Shown here: one piece after another, positions 17,592 to 38,936 of the stretch
Layout of the letters: every line of letters begins with the position of its first letter
Numbering within the stretch: the stretch's first letter is position 1
Assembly: GCA_030065935.1 (NCBI GenBank)
Contig: JASJCP010000063.1
Coordinates: 1 to 47,400 of the forward strand
DNA: 47,400 nucleotides
From: Xenococcaceae cyanobacterium MO_167.B27
GTDB taxonomy: Bacteria > Cyanobacteriota > Cyanobacteriia > Cyanobacteriales > Xenococcaceae
Direction of reading: 5' to 3'
Translations under genes and position numbers: made by a program
Notes under the pieces: model-generated
Told to the model about the DNA's origin: nothing
The model's database searches: none
The model's input: only the letters and a program-made list of their open reading frames with translations

Positions 17592-17618
17592 ATCAATCAG
17601 ACCGCAGGTCTGATTGAT
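17592..17618 (-). repeat. Right-end hairpin of the lone TnpB element
   Basis: ATCAATCAGACC at 17592-17603 pairs perfectly with GGTCTGATTGAT at 17607-17618 around GCA. It overlaps the tnpB stop codon at 17597-17599. IS200/IS605 elements carry such a subterminal hairpin at the right end. Confidence 0.75.
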
Positions 17619-18874
17619 GAGGAACTGGTTTTCAGTAGCCCTAGGTTGTCACCGTCTTGAACGGGTTGCTCATGGGGGAAACCCCCAAGACCGCACCCGT
17701 CCGCAAATAGGTTAAGTTGGATATATTCTCGTACTCCAAAACTTACTCTACAAGCTAAACCTGAACCTCCAGGCGTGTTTATAGAACGCCCCAAAGCAGC
17801 TATATTCAAAGCTCCCTGATAATCAGGGTCACATCTATTTAGACATTCAGGATTGATACATCTGAAAGATTTTCCATTTCTGTTGCCAATGTGCAGACAT
17901 TTGTGGCAGCTAACAGATGTGTAGGCTGGATTTACCAAGATTAAAGGGACGCTTTTCAAGACACACTTGTAGGTCAAAAATTGCCTCAACATATAGAAAC
18001 TCCAGTTATTGCTGTGCCTTCTTTCTGTCTTAGACCTTGGCTTTTGATTAGTGCGCTCTCTAATTCCTGTAAGGTCTTCAATAGCAATGGCTTGACCGTT
18101 AGTTGCTGCTTTATCTACTAAACGGCGTGATATTACATGGTTTACGTGTTGCTGAAATCTTTTCTCCTTGCCTGATAACCGTTGCAAAAGTTGTCTGCAT
18201 CTTCTGCGACTACTTCTTGTGCCTGACGAAGCTTTTTTTTGGAGAATTAATCTCAACCACGCATAATGGTTACGCTTGGCTTTTAGCTTTTGTCCATCCC
18301 ATTTATCTCCTTCTGATGTATGACAAATATCGACTCTTCCTAGATCACACCCTAAAACCTTCTTTGTAGTGAAACGGTCTGGAACATCATGCTCTAGGTT
18401 GATATGAATGTAATAGTCCCCGTTTCTACGTTTAACCAAAGTTGCTGCCTTGGGGTCTTGTCCTTTAAGGATTCCTCTTTGGTAATTTCCAATATGCAAA
18501 GGAATTTTTACTCGGTTTTTTAGTAATTTAATACTAATAGACCAATCTGATTCTCTAAAGCTAAATATCCTGGCATCATAGGTAGCAGAAGTAGGGCTAA
18601 ACTTTCTAAGGTTACGATTTTTTTGCTTGACAGTTTTTCTGTTACTGCAAACCCTTCTTAATGCTTGGATAGCAAGATTAGCTGATAAACCAAATTGTTC
18701 TCTAACCTGGTTGTAAACCAGTTTTTGCATTTTGGTTTTGTTGGTTAGGTCTTTGGGAGTATTGGCGTTTACCCATTCACAGGCAGCAGCAAACATAAAT
18801 AATGTCTCGTCAATCTCTGCACTTATGTTTTTATCTACTTGGAGTTTGCAGGCTACTGTGGTGATTGCTTTCAT
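17597..18874 (-). CDS. tnpB: TnpB RNA-guided nuclease of an IS200/IS605-type element
   Basis: 425 residues from ATG at 18872-18874. A GTG seven codons upstream is in frame but unlikely, since MKAITTVACKLQ is a typical TnpB start. The RuvC-like active site is intact: D177 in LGCDLGR, E266 in IAIEDLTG, and D351 in CDPDYQGALNI. The zinc ribbon is C323-x2-C326 with C339, C344 and C348, the second half spaced as CINPEC. No tnpA is beside it, so it is a lone tnpB (IS1341-like arrangement) needing a transposase in trans. The 3' end overlaps a nested hairpin and the right-end hairpin. It is inserted between the DALR gene and glcD. Confidence 0.9.
   Translation of the reverse strand: MKAITTVACKLQVDKNISAEIDETLFMFAAACEWVNANTPKDLTNKTKMQKLVYNQVREQFGLSANLAIQALRRVCSNRKTVKQKNRNLRKFSPTSATYDARIFSFRESDWSISIKLLKNRVKIPLHIGNYQRGILKGQDPKAATLVKRRNGDYYIHINLEHDVPDRFTTKKVLGCDLGRVDICHTSEGDKWDGQKLKAKRNHYAWLRLILQKKASSGTRSSRRRCRQLLQRLSGKEKRFQQHVNHVISRRLVDKAATNGQAIAIEDLTGIRERTNQKPRSKTERRHSNNWSFYMLRQFLTYKCVLKSVPLILVNPAYTSVSCHKCLHIGNRNGKSFRCINPECLNRCDPDYQGALNIAALGRSINTPGGSGLACRVSFGVREYIQLNLFADGCGLGGFPHEQPVQDGDNLGLLKTSSSSIRPAV
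17620..17705 (-). ncRNA. Candidate reRNA (omega RNA) scaffold overlapping the tnpB 3' end
   Basis: A nested structure is visible inside the last codons: ACGGGT at 17661-17666 pairs with ACCCGT at 17695-17700, enclosing GGGGG-AAA-CCCCC at 17674-17686. TnpB guide RNAs come from the 3' end of the gene and the right end. Position and structure fit, but transcription is not shown. Confidence 0.4.
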
Positions 18875-19330
18875 AAGAGTTATTTTATCACCCACAGTAC
18901 TAAAAGTAAATTCGACGAACAGCGGAAGCTATGAAAAGTAAAGTCAGAGGCAATGCAGAGTTGATCGAGACTGAAGAACCGCTAGTTTTTTCTGATGTAA
19001 GTGGATATGATAAGGTGCTAACCATGCAGATGTCGGCTTATTGTAGAGTTGCTTCTCCCCTAAATGAGAGAGGCAATCGTTTTGCTCCTGATAGGTCAGC
19101 CAGTCGAGACTATACAGCAGCAGCAATTGTAAGGGGGCTTAAATGTGAGTAACAATAAGCTCTGGTAGTGATTGCCATAATTTTTTCGCTGATTCTCTCG
19201 ATCTATCTCCCACAAAACAACCAACAATTTCTCTAACCCACCTTCGGCACGTCAAGATGTAATATAAAGAAATACGCGATTGACAGGGATAGGGCGGTGC
19301 CGAAGGCAACAGCTTCGCTGGTCGCCAGTA

Positions 19331-26581: not shown

Positions 26582-28024
26582 TTAAGATATCAACCGTCGG
26601 CGAGTTGCCAACAAGCCCCCAGCACCAAAGATTAGCAAAGGCACTATAGTTGAAGATTCTGGGACTGAGGTGGGTGCAGTAGCTAAATCTGCACAAGGAT
26701 TAAGTGAGAGTTGTCCGTCAGCTTGTCCCTCATCGAAAGCCACTTCAGCAACAGCAAGAACATCAACAGCAGAAGGACATTTCCTTTCTCCAAAGGTGAT
26801 AGTTTCTAAGCCCACTGGTGTAGGAGTGTTAGGTAAATCTGTGTCCAGAGCGATATGAATAAAGGGTTCAAAATCCGTAGGAATTTCGTTACCATCGTTA
26901 GTAACAATGTTTCCATTGCTGAAACTATCATCATCAACCGCTTCAGAGTTAGTTCTAGTTGTTCCTAATGCGTGCTGAAGTTCGTGTAGGGCAACAGAGA
27001 ATAAATCCACAACCAAGATGTTTTCATCATCTTGTTGCAGGGGAAATTGGCTATTGTTTGCAAAAGAGCTACGCCCAATATTTATTCCTGCAAGAGAGCC
27101 TTCTCCATCCCTTTCTGTAAGTGTTGTAGCAGAGCCAAACACCTCACTGTCAAGGGGATTGTCATCCAAAAAGAATTGAATAGTCTCGTCTGTACCATCT
27201 CCATCAATATCGAACACTAAATCTTCTTGACTGTTGAAGACAATAGTTCCAGAACTCGGGAATTGAGCTCCCTGATTTATGATTGTTCCATCTTCAAAGA
27301 TTGCAGGAATGAAAATAGCAGCCAAGCCATCTATTTCGATCTCTTCAGGGGTTATACTGATAAAAGTTTCTTCAAATTCGTTAATCTCTGAGGACGGTGC
27401 ATCAGGGTTAAAAGTCGCTTCTACATCCGGTGTATCAGGAATCTCAAAAAAATCGATAATAAACTGTTGAGATTCACCTTCCCCAAAAGTCAAGGCATTT
27501 GTTATAGATGGATTAGCCGTAGATGTAAGTAGAAATAGGTCGTTAGTTTGTTGAAATTGCTGTATAAGAAGAGACTCATCTCCTTGAAGTGGGTCATCTT
27601 CTTGCAGTTCGCTTGCAAGAGATACTAAGCCAAAATCAGCCCAAGCAACATTGATTTGAATATCCTCAAACTCAGGCAATGCTTGTGTCCAGACATCAGC
27701 AGCAGTGTTGACCAAATCCAGTAAACTTCCATCCCCATTACTGATTACATTGTCAGGAAGATTAGTATTGTCTATGATGCTAAACTCGTCGTCAAAAGTT
27801 AATATTGTTCCATCCCCAAACACATTAGAACCTTCAAGAAGAGCTATACCAGCACCACCTGTAACTGGACCGGTTGGTGGTGGTATTTCTTGTTCTCCTA
27901 GGACAATTCCAGCTTGAGCTTTTGATGTCATACCACTCCAGCCCAGCAGAGTAATCATAGCTGTAAATCCCACACGAACTAAGGGAGTATAAAATAGCCC
28001 AGAGCCTAATTTATTAAATTTCAT
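26582..28024 (-). CDS. Secreted PEP-CTERM zinc metalloprotease (NF038122-like)
   Basis: 480 residues from ATG at 28022-28024, chosen because MKFNKLGSGLFYTPLVRVGF leads directly into a signal peptide with a likely cleavage after SKAQA. An ATG six codons upstream (MEQKCE) would put acidic residues first. The zinc site HELQHALG (H347, E348, H351) is visible in VDLFSVALHELQHALG, the NF038122 family pattern. The rest is acidic and aspartate-rich, suggesting calcium binding. The C terminus VPESSTIVPLLIFGAGGLLA plus TRRRLIS is a PEP-CTERM sorting signal (PES variant): motif, helix, basic tail. It should be exported and processed by an exosortase, which is not in the window. Its substrate is unknown. 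The neighbouring adhesin is a candidate partner only by position. Confidence 0.85.
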   Translation of the reverse strand: MKFNKLGSGLFYTPLVRVGFTAMITLLGWSGMTSKAQAGIVLGEQEIPPPTGPVTGGAGIALLEGSNVFGDGTILTFDDEFSIIDNTNLPDNVISNGDGSLLDLVNTAADVWTQALPEFEDIQINVAWADFGLVSLASELQEDDPLQGDESLLIQQFQQTNDLFLLTSTANPSITNALTFGEGESQQFIIDFFEIPDTPDVEATFNPDAPSSEINEFEETFISITPEEIEIDGLAAIFIPAIFEDGTIINQGAQFPSSGTIVFNSQEDLVFDIDGDGTDETIQFFLDDNPLDSEVFGSATTLTERDGEGSLAGINIGRSSFANNSQFPLQQDDENILVVDLFSVALHELQHALGTTRTNSEAVDDDSFSNGNIVTNDGNEIPTDFEPFIHIALDTDLPNTPTPVGLETITFGERKCPSAVDVLAVAEVAFDEGQADGQLSLNPCADLATAPTSVPESSTIVPLLIFGAGGLLATRRRLIS

Positions 28025-28218
28025 CTCACACTTCTGCTCCATTGTTTATCTTGTTGTTATTACCAATTCCCGCTCATTACTGCTACAGCTATTTCTCCTT
28101 GTCCCGAGCCTCATCTGTAGCAAACTTAAATCAAAATGGTATTACACCAAATCCTGTTTACATATCCCACATATATCTACAGCTTCAATAACTCTCCGCA
28201 GGAAAGGGGGGATTTTCA

Positions 28219-28663: not shown

Positions 28664-30124
28664 TTGAGAGGAAAAGCGGATTCATTTTTACCTCTTGATT
28701 ACAAAAAAACTTTATTTAAGCTGATAGAGGTGCTGCGAAAGCTAAAAGATTTCGCTATTAAACTACAATTGTCAGAATTAGAAACTGATATTGAGGAAAT
28801 TATCCAAAAACTGGCTCATGATAGTTTTTCTCTGGCTGTTGTAGGAGAATTCAAGCGAGGAAAAAGCACTTTTCTCAATGCTTTACTAGGGGCTGATATT
28901 TTACCATCTGATGTTTTGCCTACCACAGCAGCTATTAACCGAGTTACTTATGGTTTAACATCAAGAGTCAAGCTGATTTTTCGTGATGGTAGAGAGGAAT
29001 TTATTGAAATAGCACAATTAAAAGATTATGTTACCCAATTAACCCCAGAATCAGAACAAATAGCTTCACAGATACAAGAGGCTATAGTTTATTATCCTGT
29101 TTCCTACTGTCGCAATAATAATCTTGATTTGATTGATACACCAGGATTAAGTGATCGAGCAAATTTGACTCGAATTACTCTTTCAGTTCTGCCTCAAGTT
29201 GATGCTGCTATCTTTGTGATGATGGCGCAGTCTCCTCTATCTACAACGGAATCTAATTTTTTAACTGAAAATTTACTAACTCAAGATTTAGGTAAAGTAA
29301 TCTTTGTCATTACAGGAATCGATTTATGTCAATCTCCTGAAGACATAACCAAAGTTATTCAGTATGTAAAAAAACAACTGCAAAAGATAATCATTGAATA
29401 TGCTAAAGTCCACTTTGAGCCAAATTCAAGAGAATATCAGAGTTATATTCGCAAAATCGGCGAATTAAAAGTTTTTGGTGTATCTGCTAATCAAGCTTTG
29501 CAAGGCAAAGTCACAGGAGATGAAGATTTGCTCAAGCAAAGTCGATTTCCTGCTTTTGAAGCTAGTTTGAAACGGTTTTTAGAGCAAGAAAAAGGCATAA
29601 TTTTACTTCAAATTCCCACTTATAAAGCGATCGCATATTCTCAAAGAATTTTACAAGGGATTGACTCAAAAAATTCTGACTTGCTCCAACAACAAGAAGA
29701 ATTAGAACAGATTTATCAAAAAGAACTTGCTAGATTAAAAACTCAAGAAGATAATTACCGTCAACAATTGAGTGATCTGATTTCTCCCGAAATACTCAAA
29801 ATTCAAGAGCAAAAAGTTGAGCAACGAGTCAAGAGGGAAAGAGCCAAAGTCTTAATTGAAATCGAACAGAAAAAACTCCCCCAAATGACAGCAGAAATCC
29901 AAGAGATTTTAGCAGAGGTTTATAGTATATCCGACCAATTGAGGTCTGTTACAGGACAAATTTGTTATAGTTGCAGTCGCATCAACCGAGTAAATGCTAA
30001 ATTTTGTATTTACTGTGGTACTCAGATTAGTTGTCCCAACTGTAATGCCAAACTTACTACTCAAGCTTCATATTGTAGTAAATGTGGACAAAAACTAAAA
30101 TTTAGTCCAAAACCCCAAAAATAA
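28664..30124 (+). CDS. Short dynamin-like GTPase with C-terminal double zinc ribbon
   Basis: 486 residues from a TTG start. The G domain is clear: G1 GEFKRGKST at 61-69, a G2 threonine near 87, G3 DTPG at 158-161 and G4 TGID at 217-220 (canonical T/NKxD, so the Lys is replaced by Gly). A helical part at about 320-420 is rich in Gln, Glu and Lys. Residues 434-474 hold four Cys pairs (CYSC, CIYC, CPNC, CSKC), a double zinc ribbon. There is no hydrophobic paddle or membrane helix, unlike full bacterial dynamins of about 690 residues. The G domain is highly similar to that of the next gene, so they are tandem paralogues. Role unknown; regulator or partner of the larger dynamin is a reasonable guess. 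Confidence 0.88.
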   Translation: MRGKADSFLPLDYKKTLFKLIEVLRKLKDFAIKLQLSELETDIEEIIQKLAHDSFSLAVVGEFKRGKSTFLNALLGADILPSDVLPTTAAINRVTYGLTSRVKLIFRDGREEFIEIAQLKDYVTQLTPESEQIASQIQEAIVYYPVSYCRNNNLDLIDTPGLSDRANLTRITLSVLPQVDAAIFVMMAQSPLSTTESNFLTENLLTQDLGKVIFVITGIDLCQSPEDITKVIQYVKKQLQKIIIEYAKVHFEPNSREYQSYIRKIGELKVFGVSANQALQGKVTGDEDLLKQSRFPAFEASLKRFLEQEKGIILLQIPTYKAIAYSQRILQGIDSKNSDLLQQQEELEQIYQKELARLKTQEDNYRQQLSDLISPEILKIQEQKVEQRVKRERAKVLIEIEQKKLPQMTAEIQEILAEVYSISDQLRSVTGQICYSCSRINRVNAKFCIYCGTQISCPNCNAKLTTQASYCSKCGQKLKFSPKPQK

Positions 30125-30437
30125 TGATATTTTAAGCTCCAAATCCTAAAATTGGATAAAACAAAACAAGAAACTTACTGAATCTGCCTATTGTTAGAGT
30201 TTAGCCAAAGTAAAACTGCCCTTTTGCATAATTCCTATGACTAAAACATAAGTAGTTATGCACAATTAATTTGATACTTGAGATAGGTGGAGCGGTGTTA
30301 GGAAAAAATGGAATGTACAAATATGCTGAGTTACTGAACTGATAACTGATAACTGATAACTGATAACTGATAACTGATAACTGATAACTGATTACTGATT
30401 ACTGATTACTGATAATTGATCTCGGAGTATCACAATA
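30125..30437. other. Interval between the first two dynamin genes
   Basis: 313 bases without a gene. It is mainly a heptamer repeat array at 30337-30419. No terminator or promoter is obvious in the rest. The downstream gene has CTCGGAG at 30421-30427, about 10 bases before its ATG. Confidence 0.6.
30337..30419. repeat. Heptamer tandem repeat (AACTGAT)n
   Basis: About eight AACTGAT units followed by three TACTGAT-type units and a decayed end. It is the longest heptamer array in the window and ends within 20 bases of the second dynamin start codon. Confidence 0.85.
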
Positions 30438-32498
30438 ATGACAGCAGAACAATTAGATATTGAATATCAATCTACTTTTGGTGGTGTACAAAAAGCGATT
30501 ATCTCTTTGGTAGGAGACTTAAAACAACTTAAAAAATTTTCCCAACAGCTTAAGCTAGACCAATCAATCCCTCTAATTGATGATGTAATTGAGAGAGTAC
30601 AAAATAAATCCTTCTCAGTAGCGATCGTTGGTGAGTTTAAACGAGGTAAAAGTACTTTTATTAATGCCCTATTGGGTCAGGATATTTTACCCTCTGATAT
30701 TTTACCTTGTTCTGCGACTCTCAACCGCGTTACTTATGGTGTAACTCCTTCGGTCAAGGTTATTTTTAAAGACCAAACTGAAACAGAAGTTGGGATTGAT
30801 CAATTAGAAGATTACGTTACTAAGTTGACTTTTGAGTCTGAAGATACTGCTGCCAAAGTTAAAGAGGCTATTGTTTATTATCCTGTACATTACTGTCAAA
30901 ACAATGTAGATATTATTGATACTCCTGGGTTAAATGACGAATCTAATATGGATGAAGTTACCTTATCCGTATTACCCCAAGTCGATGCTGCCATCATGGT
31001 TATTTTGGCACAAGCTCCTTTTGCTGAATCAGAAAGAAAATTTTTAGAAGAAAAACTCTTAACCAATGATTTAGGAAGAATTATTTTTGTAGTTAATGGT
31101 ATTGATAATTTTAAGCGGGCAGGAGATGCAGAGCGGGTAATTCAAAATATTCAACAGCGCATTCAAAAAATGGTAATAGACCGCGCTAAAGAACAATATG
31201 GCGAAAATTCTCCAGAATATGAAGTATATCTCAAAAAAATCGGTACTCCCAAAGTATTTGGCATCTCCGCTTATCAGGCATTAGAAGCCAAGGAAAATAA
31301 CAACTCAGAATTACTGACGGAAAGTCGGTTTCCTGAATTTGAAGCATCTTTAGAAAAGTTTTTAACAGAAGAAAGAGGAGCAACCTTTTTACAAGTACCC
31401 GTCAACCGTGTTATTGCTTCTGCTGATGAAATTCTTGCTACCCTGGATATCAAAGAAAATGCTTTGGGGATGAAACAGCAAGAATTTCAAGCTAAATATC
31501 AGGCATCTGTGGCAGAAATCACTGAATTACGCCAAAAAAATGCCCAAGAAATGCGTAATATTGATACAGCAGCGATTGAAGTAAAAAGAAGAGTTCGTCC
31601 TTTAGTAGCAGAATTTTCTGGTAAATTAAAGCGAGCAGCAGAAAGTGCGGTAGATTCTGCCAATATTGAGCCTGGAGAATTGAAAAACGCGAAAGCTGTC
31701 AGCGAAAAACTAGGTAAGGTAGTCGCTGAAGCAGTGCAAAAGACTGTTCAACAGCAATCTGAAAAAATCCAAAAGGAAATTGAAATTGGTTTAGTCAAAG
31801 AAGTAACTCGATTACAAAATTTTGCTAATGATGTGGTGGGAGTACTGCAAAAAATCGAAATGCAGTTTGTTTCTATTGAAGCCTCCAGCAAAGCCCAAGT
31901 TAATGCCACAGGAGAAGGTATTACTGCTGCTTTAGCTGTATTTACAGGATTTGGTGGTATTTGGTCTGGATATAAAGAAGCTGGAATTAAAGGTGCTGCG
32001 GTAGGTGCTGCGGGAAGCTTTGGCACATTTTTTGCTGCTGGTGTAGTAGCAGGAATTATTGGCTTACCAGTTACTTTTCCCATAGTAGTAGCAGTGGGGG
32101 TTTTATCGGTATTTACAGGACGCAAATTAGTTAAAACAGTTTTTGGTGGTGAACAAGTCAGAAATTTCAAAAATAACTATAAACAAGCAGCAGTTCAAGA
32201 AATTGAAAGCAGGTTAAGGGAAGCTAAAATCGAACAAACTACCAACCAACAAATCAGCGAAACTTTTGACAAGCTAAAACAAACCATCCGTCAAGAAGTA
32301 GATGCACTTTTGGATAATACCCAAAATACCCTAGCTGATATTAGTGCCAAACGGGAACGAGATGAAGTGATGACAGAACAAGAGCATCAGGAAATTCAGG
32401 AAATGAGGCAGCAAACTGAACGGATTTTAGGTAGCGCCCAAGGTTTATCTCGTCAGTTAATGCAAAAGGTCAATTTAGCTGATAAATTAATTGCTTAA
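30438..32498 (+). CDS. Bacterial dynamin-like protein (BDLP type)
   Basis: 686 residues, close to the 693 of the crystallised Nostoc punctiforme BDLP. The G domain has G1 GEFKRGKST at 65-73, G3 DTPG at 161-164 and G4 NGID at 220-223. Long helical segments (about 320-480 and 580-686) would form the neck and trunk. A hydrophobic stretch at about 493-562 (GITAALAVFTGFGGIWSGYK, then TFFAAGVVAGIIGLPVTFP and IVVAVGVLSVF) is the membrane-inserting paddle. Family members tubulate and fuse membranes using GTP. GGAG near 30423-30427 fits the ATG at 30438. It follows a zinc-ribbon paralogue and precedes an M48 peptidase by 43 bases. Confidence 0.93.
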   Translation: MTAEQLDIEYQSTFGGVQKAIISLVGDLKQLKKFSQQLKLDQSIPLIDDVIERVQNKSFSVAIVGEFKRGKSTFINALLGQDILPSDILPCSATLNRVTYGVTPSVKVIFKDQTETEVGIDQLEDYVTKLTFESEDTAAKVKEAIVYYPVHYCQNNVDIIDTPGLNDESNMDEVTLSVLPQVDAAIMVILAQAPFAESERKFLEEKLLTNDLGRIIFVVNGIDNFKRAGDAERVIQNIQQRIQKMVIDRAKEQYGENSPEYEVYLKKIGTPKVFGISAYQALEAKENNNSELLTESRFPEFEASLEKFLTEERGATFLQVPVNRVIASADEILATLDIKENALGMKQQEFQAKYQASVAEITELRQKNAQEMRNIDTAAIEVKRRVRPLVAEFSGKLKRAAESAVDSANIEPGELKNAKAVSEKLGKVVAEAVQKTVQQQSEKIQKEIEIGLVKEVTRLQNFANDVVGVLQKIEMQFVSIEASSKAQVNATGEGITAALAVFTGFGGIWSGYKEAGIKGAAVGAAGSFGTFFAAGVVAGIIGLPVTFPIVVAVGVLSVFTGRKLVKTVFGGEQVRNFKNNYKQAAVQEIESRLREAKIEQTTNQQISETFDKLKQTIRQEVDALLDNTQNTLADISAKRERDEVMTEQEHQEIQEMRQQTERILGSAQGLSRQLMQKVNLADKLIA

Positions 32499-32541
32499 TT
32501 CCGATTAATTACTCATTTTTTATCTCTTTCCGTTCTTCATA

Positions 32542-33558
32542 ATGAAAGATCTATCTTCTGACAATCCGACGGCAAAAATTGATTTGTCTTTTGACCGCTA
32601 TCTCCAAACTAGAGCCAGAGAAATTGATTCTCATCTGGTAGGGGGAATTCCTGATTATGCCTTTTCCTTGGATCAGAAATTGCGCCAACAACTAGCAGCA
32701 ATGGGTCCAGTAAGAGCGATCGCAAAATCTCTAGTTTCCATGGCAGTACCGATTTATCGTCAAGTGCAGCAGATGGAAGCTGTAGCCGTCAGTCCCCAAC
32801 AATATCCTGAAATTTATGCTTTAGGAGAAGAATGCGCTCATCGCCTGGGAATTGGCATTCCCCAAATCTTTGTCTATTATTCTCCTTCAATTAATGCTTA
32901 TACCATTGCCACAGATGATGTAGAACCAATTGTCATTCTTTCTAGTGCTATTGTTGAAGCTTTAACCCCAGAAGAATTAAAGTTTGTCATTGGTCACGAA
33001 TGCGGACATATTCATAACCTTCATGGAGTATATAACACCGCAGTGGAATTAATGACCAATACTATGGCAGCAGTTATTTTACAATCTGTTCCTGGTTTGG
33101 GAATTCTCAAAATCTTGCTACAAGGGGGCTTACTACTGTTTTTCTCCCGTTGGAGTCGTTGTGCCGAAATAACCTGCGATCGTGCTGGCTTAATTTGTTC
33201 CCGCGATCTCTATACGGCGCAAATGGCTTTGGCAAAACTAGCCACTGGTGGAGTGAATAAATTAGATCGGATCAATCTGGAAGAATACATCAAACAAATA
33301 TCCCAAGTGCAAGCTACTCCTGTACGTCTCTTGGAGTTGACTCGCTCTCATCCCTTGCTTCATAAAAGGATTGAGGCTCTAAGATTATTTGCTGAATGCG
33401 AGGTTTTAGGTAGTTGGTGTGAGGAGATGACAATTAATAACCCTCGTAATAAACAGGAAACAGATCGACTTTGCGAGGAATTTATCAAGGTTTTGGCAAC
33501 AGGATATCAATCCCGCAAATCCTCTATGTCTCAACCAAGAGAAATTGAGATTCAATAA
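32542..33558 (+). CDS. M48 family metallopeptidase
   Basis: 338 residues. The zinc site HECGH (H152, E153, H156) sits in LKFVIGHECGHIHNLHGVYN, and the third ligand is E209 in CAEITCDRAGL, a standard M48 layout (HEXXH plus ExxxD). A hydrophobic segment at about 172-202 lies between the two, as in HtpX and OMA1-like members. The downstream SHPLLHKRIEALR is the family C-terminal motif. M48 enzymes degrade or clip membrane proteins under stress. It lies 43 bases after one dynamin and one base before another, so co-transcription is very likely. By analogy with OMA1 and OPA1 it may act on a neighbouring dynamin; that is inference. Confidence 0.92.
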   Translation: MKDLSSDNPTAKIDLSFDRYLQTRAREIDSHLVGGIPDYAFSLDQKLRQQLAAMGPVRAIAKSLVSMAVPIYRQVQQMEAVAVSPQQYPEIYALGEECAHRLGIGIPQIFVYYSPSINAYTIATDDVEPIVILSSAIVEALTPEELKFVIGHECGHIHNLHGVYNTAVELMTNTMAAVILQSVPGLGILKILLQGGLLLFFSRWSRCAEITCDRAGLICSRDLYTAQMALAKLATGGVNKLDRINLEEYIKQISQVQATPVRLLELTRSHPLLHKRIEALRLFAECEVLGSWCEEMTINNPRNKQETDRLCEEFIKVLATGYQSRKSSMSQPREIEIQ

Positions 33559-33559
33559 A

Positions 33560-35335
33560 ATGAACTTAACCAAAACAATTAGATACGACCCTCAAGAATT
33601 ACGACAAGAGTTCGGCAATATACTTAATAGCCTATCTCAGAAGCTAGAAGTAGATCCGATTAAGCAAGCTCTTGGTACAGACTTAACTCAAAAAATTGCT
33701 TCAACCGTAAATATTGTCACCAAAAGACTCCAAGGAAATTTTTCTTTGGTAGTTGTGGGAGATTTCAAGAGAGGTAAATCAACTCTGATTAATGCTTTAG
33801 TGGGAGAAGAGGTTGTTACTACTAATGTCACTCCTGAAACAGTTACCATTAATTACGTTGAGTATGGAACAGAAAATAATATTGAGGCTATTCTCAAGGA
33901 TGGAGGAAGAGTTAAGTTAACTCCAGAAGAACTTTATGCAGAACAGTTAGAACCAATCTTAAAAGAACTACCCCCCATTAAGCACCTCAAAATTACAACT
34001 CCTATAGAATGGTTGCAAGGGCTTTCTCTAATTGATACCCCTGGTACAGGGGATATTTTTGAAAGATTTGATCGGGATGTGCAATCTATTTTAGAACAGG
34101 CTGATGCGGTGATTTTTACTATTTCCGCCCTTTCTCCTCTTTCTCTATCAGAACAAAATTTTTTACAACTATCTCTATTACCCCAGGATTTTCCCAAAGT
34201 CTTTTTTGTGATCAATATGTTAGATTACCCTCGCAGTGAGTCGGAAGCACAACGGCTTTTGAGTGCAATTCAAACTAAAATTGATCGCTTGTTTCCTCAA
34301 GCCCAAGTGTTTGGTATTAGTGCTGTAGATGAGTTTTGTCGGCTTCAGTCTTTACCTAGACCCAATCCTGAGCGAGAAGAAATCTTAGCAACAGCTTTTG
34401 CAGATTTTCGACAATCACTAGAAGATTCTATCCTATTGAATCGAGATTTGATTCATCTTTACCGTCTTGCTAGTCAAATAGATCGGGATTTGAATCATTG
34501 GAAATCACAAATTCTATTACTACGTCAGGGAATGCAGTCAACTCAGGTAGAATTAGGAAAAGCGATAGCTGAATGTCAAGATGATTCTTCCCAATTATTT
34601 GCTCAAATCAAACAACATAAACAGCAAATGAGTCAGGAGATTGAGCAATTATCAAAGGAAACTCAACTATGGTTACAAGAATTTCTGGATCGCTTTGAAA
34701 CAGAAGCGATTAATTCCCTATCTCAATATCAATTAGCTCCACTCCGTCGTCATTATCCTTTCTTTTTTGCTGATTCTCTTCAAAAAGCAATTACCTCTTG
34801 TCTGGACATTCATCGCCCGAAAATTATTGCGAGTCTAGATCGAGCAGCCCAGAATATTGTGCAAGAAATCCATTTATTGAGCGATTATTATTCAGAAACT
34901 CGCGAATTAACTGATTTTTCTCTGGTTCAGCAGCAATGGACTAATCTAGATACCTTACAGATGATGATGAGGATGACTCCTCTAGGAGCGATCGCAGATT
35001 TGTTAATCCATAGAATCAAGGAATCTGATACCAGTCCGAAAGTAACAGATTATCAGAAACAACTCCAAAATTCTTTTCCTCAACTTAGAACCTCGATTAT
35101 GGAACAAGTTGAATCAATCTATTTGGGTATTACTGAGGAACTTGAGACACAAATAGATAATATCTATCAACAAGAAATCGAATCTTCTATCTCCGCTCTG
35201 CAACAGGCTCAAAGTTTATCTAGTCAAGGAGAACAAAAAGTAACCAAAACCAATGAAAGCTTAGGTAATGCCTTGTCTATTTTGAGTGAAGTTCACCACA
35301 CTTTGAATAATTTTAAACAAAAACTTTGGGATTAA
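33560..35335 (+). CDS. Dynamin-like GTPase, third of the cluster
   Basis: 591 residues from ATG 33560, one base after the peptidase stop at 33556-33558. A TTG at 33545 is in frame but overlaps the peptidase. G1 GDFKRGKST at 67-75, G3 DTPG at 159-162 and G4 NMLD at 219-222. It is more distant from the other two. The C-terminal part is helical with coiled-coil-like Gln/Glu patterns (about 320-400 and 500-580). No strong membrane helix is seen; a short hydrophobic stretch near 470-485 (MMMRMTPLGAIADLLI) could touch membrane. The near-zero spacing suggests translational coupling to the M48 peptidase. Confidence 0.9.
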   Translation: MNLTKTIRYDPQELRQEFGNILNSLSQKLEVDPIKQALGTDLTQKIASTVNIVTKRLQGNFSLVVVGDFKRGKSTLINALVGEEVVTTNVTPETVTINYVEYGTENNIEAILKDGGRVKLTPEELYAEQLEPILKELPPIKHLKITTPIEWLQGLSLIDTPGTGDIFERFDRDVQSILEQADAVIFTISALSPLSLSEQNFLQLSLLPQDFPKVFFVINMLDYPRSESEAQRLLSAIQTKIDRLFPQAQVFGISAVDEFCRLQSLPRPNPEREEILATAFADFRQSLEDSILLNRDLIHLYRLASQIDRDLNHWKSQILLLRQGMQSTQVELGKAIAECQDDSSQLFAQIKQHKQQMSQEIEQLSKETQLWLQEFLDRFETEAINSLSQYQLAPLRRHYPFFFADSLQKAITSCLDIHRPKIIASLDRAAQNIVQEIHLLSDYYSETRELTDFSLVQQQWTNLDTLQMMMRMTPLGAIADLLIHRIKESDTSPKVTDYQKQLQNSFPQLRTSIMEQVESIYLGITEELETQIDNIYQQEIESSISALQQAQSLSSQGEQKVTKTNESLGNALSILSEVHHTLNNFKQKLWD

Positions 35336-37250: not shown

Positions 37251-37661
37251 CTATTTCCCTTGGCACTCAGTAATATATCTTCTAATGACTTCGGCAGATA
37301 CATTTCCCGCAGTACCAACATAGTAAGCAGAAGTCCAGAGCTTGTCTTTTCCACATATCTTTTTTAGTTTAGGAAACTTTTGGCGCAAAAACCTAGATGT
37401 ATAACCTTTGAGCAAATTGGCAATATTAGCAGGAGAATATCTGGGTGGTGCAGAGATAAAAACATGAACGTGGTCTATGTCTGTTTCTAAAGCTAATAAC
37501 CTTAGTTGATGACGTTCACAGCACTCTTCTATCAATCGCTTAGTTTCCGCTTCAACATCTCCAACCAATATCTTGCGCCTATATTTGGGAATCCAGACCA
37601 AATGATAAGCAATTGAATAGTGGGTATATCTTGTTTTACCCTCCTGTGATACTTGACTCAT
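37251..37661 (-). CDS. tnpA: IS200/IS605 transposase TnpA (Y1 HUH)
   Basis: 136 residues from ATG at 37659-37661 (MSQVSQEG); an ATG 11 codons upstream would overlap tnpB. TnpA is a single-strand HUH transposase that cuts and joins at TTAC-like targets using hairpin ends. H64-V65-H66 in DIDHVHVFIS is the HUH motif. Y129 in EVIRRYITEC is the catalytic tyrosine. SIAYHLVWIPKYRRKIL near 16-32 is the family N terminus. The protein is intact. Confidence 0.95.
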   Translation of the reverse strand: MSQVSQEGKTRYTHYSIAYHLVWIPKYRRKILVGDVEAETKRLIEECCERHQLRLLALETDIDHVHVFISAPPRYSPANIANLLKGYTSRFLRQKFPKLKKICGKDKLWTSAYYVGTAGNVSAEVIRRYITECQGK

Positions 37662-37688
37662 TTTATTGATGTATATTATTTTAATAAA

Positions 37689-38936
37689 ATGCAAACCACT
37701 AAGATATATAGATTACCATACCAAAAACCAGAAGTCTTTGAGAGACTAAAAGCTGCTCAAATGGAAGCAGCAAAAGTTTGGAATGAATGTACCCAAGCTC
37801 ATAGGAAATGTCGCATTAATCAAACACCTTGGCTGAACCAAACTGCTTTGCAGAAACTAACCAAGGGAAAATATCAACTGCATTCCCAATCAGTGCAGAT
37901 GGTAATTCAGGCATTTTTAGCCAATATTGATAGCACCAGAGCTAATCGTAAAGCTCTAATCAAAAACATGAAATATCCTTGGAGAACGAAGCGGTTTTAT
38001 CCTGTAGCTTGGGCTGCTCAATCAGTCAAATACGAGTTAGGCATACTGACTTTACCGATGGGTCGTGGTAGAAAATCACTATCCTTTAAGTTGGATTTAG
38101 ACTTTCTACCTGGTGCAGTATCTTTGGTCTGGAATCGTGGTTTTGAAATTCATATCAAACAGGAGGTGCAATTAGAGAAGAAAAAAACAACAGGAAACAA
38201 AGCAACTATTGATTTAGGAGAAATACATATATCTGCTGTTACTACTAACACAGGTCAAGGATTGATTGTTAGTGGTAGAGGGATTCGTTCTCTGAAGCGA
38301 CAAAGAAATATTGCTTTAGCCAAATTACAAGGCAAGCAATCCCGATGCACTAAATATTCTAAAAGATGGAAAAAGTTACAAAAAGCTAAAAATAAGTTTT
38401 GTCTCAGAAATTCTAGACAAATCAGAGAATATAGACATCAAGCTACTCGTCAGGTTGTTGAGTTTTGCAGAACTCATGACGTGGATACGGTCTTTATTGG
38501 CAATCCCGATGGTGTCAGAAAGAAGAATTGTGGAAGATGTCACAATCAAAGAATGGCACAGTGGGAATATGGTAAAGATATTGACTATCTAACATACAAG
38601 TTTAAAATGGCTGGTATTTCAGTTCTAATTGGAAACGAAAGAGGTACATCCAGCACTTGTCCCGAATGTGGGCATCGACATAAACCAAAAGGTAGAACTT
38701 GGAACTGTCCAAAATGTAGCTATAAGAAAAAGCATAGAGATATTACAGGTTCTCTCAATATGCACAATCTTGCTTTTGGAGAAAAAACTAAATATCCTGA
38801 AACTATCAAGTATCTACGACCAGTTATTACTGGAAGTAGTAGATGGCTCGACACCGCCCAAAGTAGTCTAACACTAACTAATACCACAAGCACCTCTGTT
38901 CGAGGGAAATCATTTGATTTTTGCCCAAAGTATTAG
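37689..38936 (+). CDS. tnpB: TnpB protein of the IS200/IS605 element, altered RuvC-II site
   Basis: 415 residues from ATG 37689 (MQTTKIYRLP); the frame is open upstream but that part overlaps tnpA. D175 in ATIDLGE is RuvC-I and D351 in KHRDITGSLNM is RuvC-III. The position where TnpB usually has Glu reads VFIGNPDGVRKK, with N272 in its place. E317 in IGNERGTSS just before the zinc ribbon could be an alternative acidic residue. Zinc ribbon: CPECG and CPKCSY. It shares little with the lone TnpB at 17597. The 3' end includes an AACACTA...TAGTGTT inverted repeat typical of a guide-RNA scaffold. Confidence 0.92.
   Translation: MQTTKIYRLPYQKPEVFERLKAAQMEAAKVWNECTQAHRKCRINQTPWLNQTALQKLTKGKYQLHSQSVQMVIQAFLANIDSTRANRKALIKNMKYPWRTKRFYPVAWAAQSVKYELGILTLPMGRGRKSLSFKLDLDFLPGAVSLVWNRGFEIHIKQEVQLEKKKTTGNKATIDLGEIHISAVTTNTGQGLIVSGRGIRSLKRQRNIALAKLQGKQSRCTKYSKRWKKLQKAKNKFCLRNSRQIREYRHQATRQVVEFCRTHDVDTVFIGNPDGVRKKNCGRCHNQRMAQWEYGKDIDYLTYKFKMAGISVLIGNERGTSSTCPECGHRHKPKGRTWNCPKCSYKKKHRDITGSLNMHNLAFGEKTKYPETIKYLRPVITGSSRWLDTAQSSLTLTNTTSTSVRGKSFDFCPKY

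Follow-up and report, generated by a model that had tools for sequence, protein, structure and literature searches.

A dynamin-M48 peptidase-dynamin gene trio recurring in distant bacteria suggests a membrane-response system

In mitochondria the M48 metallopeptidase OMA1 cleaves the dynamin OPA1. Bacterial dynamin genes are mostly paired in operons, and Cj-DLP1 and Cj-DLP2 form a tethering 2:2 hetero-tetramer (PMC6104087, in the excerpt consulted); DynA of Bacillus subtilis takes part in membrane surveillance and delays phage lysis (excerpt of PMC8844932). The present analysis concerns a stretch of 47,400 nucleotides from Xenococcaceae cyanobacterium MO_167.B27 (GCA_030065935.1, contig JASJCP010000063.1, positions 1 to 47,400; hereafter the window), which carries three dynamin-like genes, D1, D2 and D3, and a gene for an M48-family peptidase, hereafter M48, between positions 28,664 and 35,335. 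The D2-M48-D3 trio was found again in distant bacteria, in one case with a peptidase that has lost its active site. This recurrence suggests a putative system for membrane responses that has not been described before. The three genes very probably constitute one functional unit. With a probability of about 0.42, we read them as a rare, horizontally spread membrane-effector module whose D2:D3 pair would be gated by M48 and may serve defence or cell fate.

The D2-M48-D3 locus and its recurrence

The positions of the four open reading frames (ORFs) were checked, and all lie on a single strand where a preliminary description of this DNA had placed them. The features of the locus are as follows (strand given as +, or. 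where none is assigned; lengths in amino acids, aa).

28664..30124 (+): D1, dynamin-like G domain and neck, accessory, 486 aa (Dynamin_N 1.2e-31)
29963..30088 (+): C-terminal double zinc ribbon of D1, residues 434-475 (DZR 34.0 bits, cut-off 27.3)
30337..30420 (.): AACTGAT-like 7-base tandem repeat between D1 and D2 (repeat in sequence)
30438..32498 (+): D2, full dynamin of the bacterial dynamin-like protein (BDLP) type, 686 aa (Dynamin_N 1.3e-30; PF21808 30.2 bits)
32055..32111 (+): hydrophobic segment of D2, residues 540-558, putative membrane paddle (Kyte-Doolittle 2.39)
32542..33558 (+): M48-family zinc metallopeptidase, 338 aa (Peptidase_M48 83.2 bits, cut-off 20.3)
32995..33009 (+): zinc motif HECGH of M48, residues 152-156 (motif in sequence)
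33166-33168 (+): third zinc ligand of M48, E209 (motif in sequence)
33560..35335 (+): D3, dynamin-like GTPase without hydrophobic paddle, 591 aa (Dynamin_N 1.6e-18)

D1 and D2 are separated by 313 bases, and the spacings of 43 bases between D2 and M48 and 1 base between M48 and D3 agree with the preliminary description. The start codon of D1 is TTG, with AGGAG upstream. The Dynamin_N scores were 110.5, 107.1 and 67.8 bits for D1, D2 and D3, respectively (cut-off 27), and M48 matched Peptidase_M48 (PF01435) at E 3e-23. The G1 (GxxxxGKS) and G3 (DTPG) motifs of the three dynamins and the HECGH site had been described as intact, which was borne out and applies to E209 as well. A search of the own genome with D2 (E <= 0.001) matched D1, D2 and D3 only.

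M48 orthologues, taken at E <= 1e-45, are rare. They were detected in 2 of 195 genomes of the order sample (own genome and G162), 2 of 386 of the phylum sample (own genome and G469), 2 of 27 of the window family (again the own genome and G162), and 4 of 217 of another family, f33 (G469, G582, G584 and G593). A search of 84,980 species genomes, made with two short peptide patterns only, retrieved Hyella patelloides, Vasconcelosia minhoensis and Goleter apudmare. When Hyella (L034, L036 and G162) and Goleter (L038, L043 and G584) are each counted once, seven cyanobacterial loci result, including the window; they span Pleurocapsales, Nodosilineales and Nostocales, as the f33 genomes are termed here because Goleter belongs to f33, and their flanks differ. 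Conserved linkage had been set as a check on the cluster, and it was found: the order and strand of D2-M48-D3 are kept in all seven cyanobacterial loci, and the order is also kept in a gut element (8/8 loci). The gaps D2-M48 and M48-D3 are 43 and 1 bases in the window, 99 and 711 in Hyella, -1 and 175 in Vasconcelosia, 77 and 2 in Goleter, 191 and 2 in G469, 82 and 6 in G582, and 862 and 8 in G593. In Hyella, M48 and D3 are parted by an inserted GNAT acetyltransferase gene (L034:3585-4058), and D1 and D2 by an orange carotenoid protein gene (L034:7847-8806).

Full-length D3 was present in the same genomes as M48 in the order sample (2/195), the phylum sample (2/386, by profile search) and f33 (4/217), and the overlap of the two in the 217 genomes has a hypergeometric P of 6e-8, with relatedness ignored. 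In f33, a C-terminal D3 fragment was also found on two contigs of G604, an assembly with 38% contamination; the contig examined (L074) holds a 143-aa ORF and no module, and the fragment was excluded from the D3 count. The linkage is not general to M48 peptidases and dynamins, because among the remaining M48 loci in the order sample the 28 with the highest scores (33-39% identity) have no dynamin within about 1.5 kb. Within the window family, D2 and D1 (E <= 1e-60) were present in only 2 of 27 genomes, both M48 carriers, and at this threshold neither was found in three same-genus assemblies (incomplete, 76-81%) or in the congener of Hyella. The plasmid search gave no M48 orthologue in the 18 records matched (identity about 32% at most), and the plasmid matches to D2 and D3 were distant dynamins.

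The G1 and G3 motifs are invariant across the seven loci. The ratio of nonsynonymous to synonymous substitution rates (dN/dS) in three genome pairs covering five of the seven loci was 0.05-0.10 for D2, 0.08-0.24 for M48 and 0.15-0.22 for D3, the values for the window-Hyella pair being rough because dS exceeds 1 by NG86. The Vasconcelosia M48 (L037:8998-9975) is 72-74% identical to the Pleurocapsales copies and 60-62% to those of Nostocales, whereas its D2 (L037:6860-8998) is 57% identical to the former and 61-64% to the latter, as though these genes had in part followed different histories.

The eighth locus was found by searching phage records with D3. MT836781.1 (L076), a scaffold of 8.8 kb obtained from human faeces, is an unverified record labelled 'Bacteriophage sp.'; in it, D2, M48 and D3 follow one another with intergenic gaps of 15 and 19 bases. 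Compared with the window, its D2 is 39% identical over 675 columns, its M48-like protein 27% over 315 aa (E 4e-36) and its D3 26%. A tyrosine integrase, helix-turn-helix genes and a PemK/MazF gene come after the module; only 174 bases of scaffold precede D2, too few to show whether another dynamin lies upstream. As the integrase is closest to Subdoligranulum (71%) and Monoglobus (68%) records, we infer a Clostridia host, and the scaffold may be bacterial mobile DNA rather than phage. IMG/VR, scanned with the three gut proteins (M48, D3 and D2) and the M48 alignment, gave no matches, and the gut M48 had neither a plasmid match nor a second phage record.

L076:2248-3225 in MT836781.1 (.): gut M48-like protein between two dynamins, zinc ligands all replaced

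This protein has CECGR for HECGH, with C, R and D at the positions of H152, H156 and E209, and it is no longer recognised by Pfam. It keeps the N-terminal block NP...F..Y...R.R....H.VGG..DYAF..D. The G4 aspartate of the window D2 is missing from the gut D2, as read from the alignment. Because all three zinc ligands are lost, at least the gut version cannot act by M48 proteolysis.

The dynamins, the M48 protein and their putative interplay

The paralogy proposed earlier for D1 and D2 holds (49% identity over 364 aa), but D1 is not a full dynamin, as it comprises a G domain, a neck and a double zinc ribbon. D3 resembles neither of them closely, sharing 36% identity with D1 over 198 aa and 32% with D2 over 269 aa. 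D2 contains the bacterial helical domain PF21808 (30.2 bits, cut-off 28.3), and the hydropathy of its paddle segment is at least 2.0 in all seven cyanobacterial copies. Neither a PF21808 match nor a strong hydrophobic segment beyond the G domain was found in D1 and D3 by Pfam scan and hydropathy; D3 is predicted to be mostly helical downstream of its G domain.

The zinc ribbon of D1 consists of four CxxC. CxxC pairs also terminate the accessory dynamin of Hyella, Goleter, G469 and G593, and in G582 they end a split-off ORF of 120 aa; none was found at the end of the Vasconcelosia accessory dynamin. A further dynamin lies within 5 kb at 7/7 loci, upstream on the same strand in six and downstream on the opposite strand in Vasconcelosia. 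From the four-gene cluster of the preliminary description a D2-M48-D3 core remains, to which D1 is loosely linked, and the D1-like zinc-ribbon dynamins are accessories outside the invariant core. Two small proteins with a terminal zinc ribbon, L037:5549-6139 (196 aa) and L081:8768-9298 (176 aa), are 47% identical to each other and adjoin D2-type dynamins.

HECGH and E209 are invariant in the seven cyanobacterial M48 members, which are 57-85% identical to the window M48. An N-terminal block specific to these proteins (about residues 8-60) is common to all eight module members and is a candidate docking surface. A hydrophobic stretch near residues 173-201 occurs in three of the seven. The structure models were of moderate quality (pLDDT 67 for M48 and 70 for D3), and Foldseek matches are therefore read for fold class only. 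In this sense, the sole fold match of the M48 model at E<=0.001 was the HtpX domain 3cqb (E 5.5e-4), with weaker likeness to ZMPSTE24/Ste24 (E 2e-3 and above).

By analogy with described dynamin pairs, D2 and D3 are likely to form a heterotypic pair, and it is somewhat likely that M48 acts physically on the dynamins. The simplest reading makes M48 part of one machine with the dynamins, since it lies between D2 and D3 at every locus found and is kept even when dead. We propose that D2 (with paddle) and D3 (without) would pair and act on the membrane, and that M48 would dock on D2:D3 through its specific N-terminal block and gate assembly. The zinc site is intact in the cyanobacterial members, and therefore proteolysis should matter there, of D2, D3 or another target. 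The active peptidase of these versions would probably gate by proteolysis upon stress or infection, the D1-like zinc-ribbon dynamins would serve as accessories, and the dead M48 fold of the gut version could act by binding only. Cleavage of D2 or D3 themselves by M48, as far as conserved residues can indicate it, is a tentative proposal that we hold to have about one chance in three.

Alternatively, and rather improbably, the locus would serve membrane stress or repair, with the dynamins tethering or sealing damaged cytoplasmic or thylakoid membrane and remaining uncut, while an HtpX-like M48 clears damaged or mislocalised membrane proteins. The nearness of the M48 fold to 3cqb and, more weakly, to ZMPSTE24/Ste24 would suit this alternative, as would the role of DynA in membrane surveillance (PMC8844932, excerpt) and a window neighbourhood of housekeeping genes with no defence island. 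However, HtpX identity was rejected, as the best curated HtpX model reached 52.7 bits, far under its cut-off of 245, and the N-terminal hydrophobic pair of HtpX was not found by hydropathy in the module M48s (nothing N-terminal exceeds 1.4 in six members, and the sole segment above it is residues 49-67 of Vasconcelosia, at 1.51). A general stress role also agrees poorly with carriage by 2 of the 27 genomes of the family, or with a dead peptidase.

The dead gut protein points instead to M48 being chiefly a structural adaptor or chaperone for D2:D3, with peptidase activity that is ancestral or confined to self-processing; we regard this as still less probable. That the gut protein retains 27% identity over 315 aa, its operon position and the N-terminal block after losing H152, H156 and E209 argues for an adaptor, and inactive peptidase domains are common in effector position of conflict systems (PMC7159879, in the part consulted). 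Nevertheless, zinc ligands invariant in 7/7 cyanobacterial members and an M48 dN/dS of 0.08-0.24 would be unlikely if catalysis were idle. Chance neighbourhood or hitchhiking without functional interplay is disfavoured as very improbable. In its favour, a rare module could travel as a single DNA segment, but the order is kept across three cyanobacterial orders and a gut element at 27% M48 identity with differing flanks, and D3 coincides with M48 as given above.

Caspase neighbours and surroundings of the module

The proposed gated module draws its link to defence or cell fate, a role that we hold possible at slightly under even odds from gene content, from the Nostocales loci. A protease-WD40 gene is convergent with D3 in 3 of 4 of them: a caspase-WD40 gene 353 bases from D3 in G593, a caspase-WD40 gene in G469, and a CHAT-WD40 gene 42 bases from D3 in G582 (CHAT by PADLOC model only). 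In G469 and G593, a gene for a 126-133-aa protein overlaps the start of the caspase-WD40 gene, and the two copies are 75% identical. Candidate scoring (five per genome) revealed at least two caspase-dynamin fusions.

L045:3664-5889 (.): caspase-dynamin fusion inside the G593 cluster, 741 aa (NF047832 caspase_w_EACC1, 156.7 bits)
L075:2039-5047 (.): caspase fused to a D2-like dynamin in Goleter, 1002 aa (NF047832, 168 bits)

The caspase His and Cys are present in both. The Goleter fusion lies off the module contig; divergent from it are a caspase-WD40 gene and a gene whose small product shares 89% identity with its G469 counterpart. NF047832 was passed by all five caspases tested, namely the caspase-WD40 proteins of G469, G593 and Goleter and the two fusions (147.8-168 bits, cut-off 140). 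Among the small proteins, that of G593 matched EACC1 below threshold (14.5 of 23.6 bits); those of G469 and Goleter gave no EACC1 match, so that the cut-off was reached by 0/3. The fusions suggest, at the level of gene architecture, that peptidase control of D2-type dynamins arose more than once, in a conflict-tied protein family. That two Nostocales genomes carry D2-like dynamins fused to EACC1-type caspases likewise points to membrane responses that may serve defence or cell fate. A broader class of mobile protease-gated dynamin effectors, in which dynamin pairs would be controlled by a peptidase-fold partner of their own (an M48 protein, whether active or decayed into a catalytically dead adaptor, or a fused caspase of the EACC1 type) and would act in anti-phage defence or programmed cell death, is a doubtful generalisation.

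Several observations weigh against the gated module or its defence role. No caspase (Peptidase_C14) was found on the window contig, the 10 own-genome matches all lying elsewhere, nor on the 13-kb contig of Hyella, whose 2 lie elsewhere; by eye, no caspase was noticed among the Vasconcelosia ORFs, of which two neighbours were scanned. Caspase counts were 10 in the own genome, 2 in G162, 9 in G469, 3 in G582, 9 in G584 and 10 in G593. The chance of a caspase in a given 10-kb stretch is about 1% in caspase-rich genomes by our own estimate, and some proximity is expected because the Nostocales carriers hold 3-10 caspases each; these four carriers are also mutually related. A Uma2 gene lies between D3 and the caspase-WD40 gene in G469, and the Goleter fusion lacks the DTPG motif. 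D2-type dynamins occur without M48 or D3 at all four such loci examined among the matches listed, where D2 adjoins another dynamin; D2 is therefore a wider type, to which M48 and D3 are a specific addition. For D3, 3-6 candidates were scored in each genome, and its absences have this scope. The gut locus is known from a single scaffold of 8.8 kb, which is unverified, and its M48, dead by sequence, speaks against cleavage as a universal mechanism.

The window neighbours offer no defence-island support, because they are housekeeping genes (PurD, Pth, CysS, PhoH, RibH) and IS605-type genes, which also counts against the module as a defence system. Accordingly, the defence role put forward in the preliminary description gains indirectly from the caspase/CHAT-WD40 neighbours and fusions of the Nostocales relatives and from nothing in the window. 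The Pfam scan covered 25 of the 37 window ORFs of at least 120 aa, and further neighbours are a TPS-domain protein and a PMT_2 mannosyltransferase-like gene. IS200/IS605-type genes flank the module, with TnpA and TnpB at 37251-38936, about 2 kb downstream, and TnpB alone at 17597-18895, about 10 kb upstream. A 486-aa protein encoded upstream of D1 (26582-28042, - strand) had no Pfam match at E 0.001; it carries what we take to be a zinc-protease-like motif, HELQH, and a PEP-CTERM-like C-terminal end.

Other dynamin loci were also observed. In genome G538 (L081:876-6926), a KAP-type NTPase gene and a gene for a 1542-aa WD40-repeat protein lead directly into a D2-type dynamin tandem. A cyanobacterial plasmid (L078:2559-7908) has cas1, cas2 and then a dynamin on one strand. 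A Lysinibacillus plasmid (L077:2837-9503) has three dynamin genes in a row (999, 641 and 574 aa by annotation), with no M48 annotated there and a predicted fexA gene close by.

Comparison with known systems

Nostoc BDLP (2j68) was the top PDB sequence match of D1, D2 and D3 and is the closest solved relative of D2, with which it shares the G domain, the bacterial helical domain and the hydrophobic paddle segment. The cyanobacterial tandem BDLPs of clades Tandem A and B (PMC5827413, as far as consulted) are likewise dynamins in tandem, whereas M48 and D3 are extra in the present module. The words 'protease', 'peptidase' and 'zinc' had 0 occurrences in the main text of PMC5827413, a 2018 review of cyanobacterial dynamins. 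The Cj-DLP1/Cj-DLP2 pair also comprises two unlike dynamins from adjoining genes, and the D3 model resembled BDLP best and then the Cj-DLP structures (TMq 0.31-0.44); however, sequence similarity is weak, and the excerpt of PMC6104087 names a beta-lactamase-like partner and no M48 gene in the Cj-DLP operon.

For Eleos, D1-D3 matched the PADLOC models LeoA (E 7e-26 to 8e-18) and LeoBC (1e-20 to 4e-6) at superfamily level only, both models being matched by all six dynamin-type GTPases tested, with no curated cut-off shown. The LeoA subfamily model NF041922 (cut-off 325 bits) gave 21.0, 23.4 and 16 bits for D1, D2 and D3, and this assignment was rejected. Eleos is not known to include an M48 peptidase. 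The M48 fold and the HExxH plus Glu site are common to HtpX, other M48 peptidases and the present protein, which by hydropathy lacks the N-terminal transmembrane pair of HtpX and has N- and C-terminal extensions of its own.

The arrangement of small gene and caspase-WD40 gene in G469 and G593 is like that of the EACC1-caspase two-gene conflict system (PMC7159879, in part), the small protein occupying the EACC1 position; none of these genes is in the window. 'Dynamin' and 'M48' had 0 occurrences in the main texts of two conflict-system papers, including PMC7159879, and among the literature matches listed no title or abstract opening linked an M48 peptidase or caspase to a bacterial dynamin. If protease gating is true, the system would be a bacterial parallel of OMA1-OPA1 and caspase-gasdermin, and membrane remodelling would, through the caspase-dynamin fusions, join the possible outputs of bacterial caspase systems. 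The active and dead natural M48 versions are a ready construct pair to separate binding from cleavage.

In summary, judged by sequence, the module is a variant of the bacterial dynamin-pair kind and neither Eleos nor HtpX by the cut-offs tested. The parallel with OMA1-OPA1, which concerns function only, makes M48 control a reasonable hypothesis, but the dead gut member counts against it as a general rule; if proteolysis does gate these dynamins, M48 peptidases would control dynamins in bacteria as in mitochondria.

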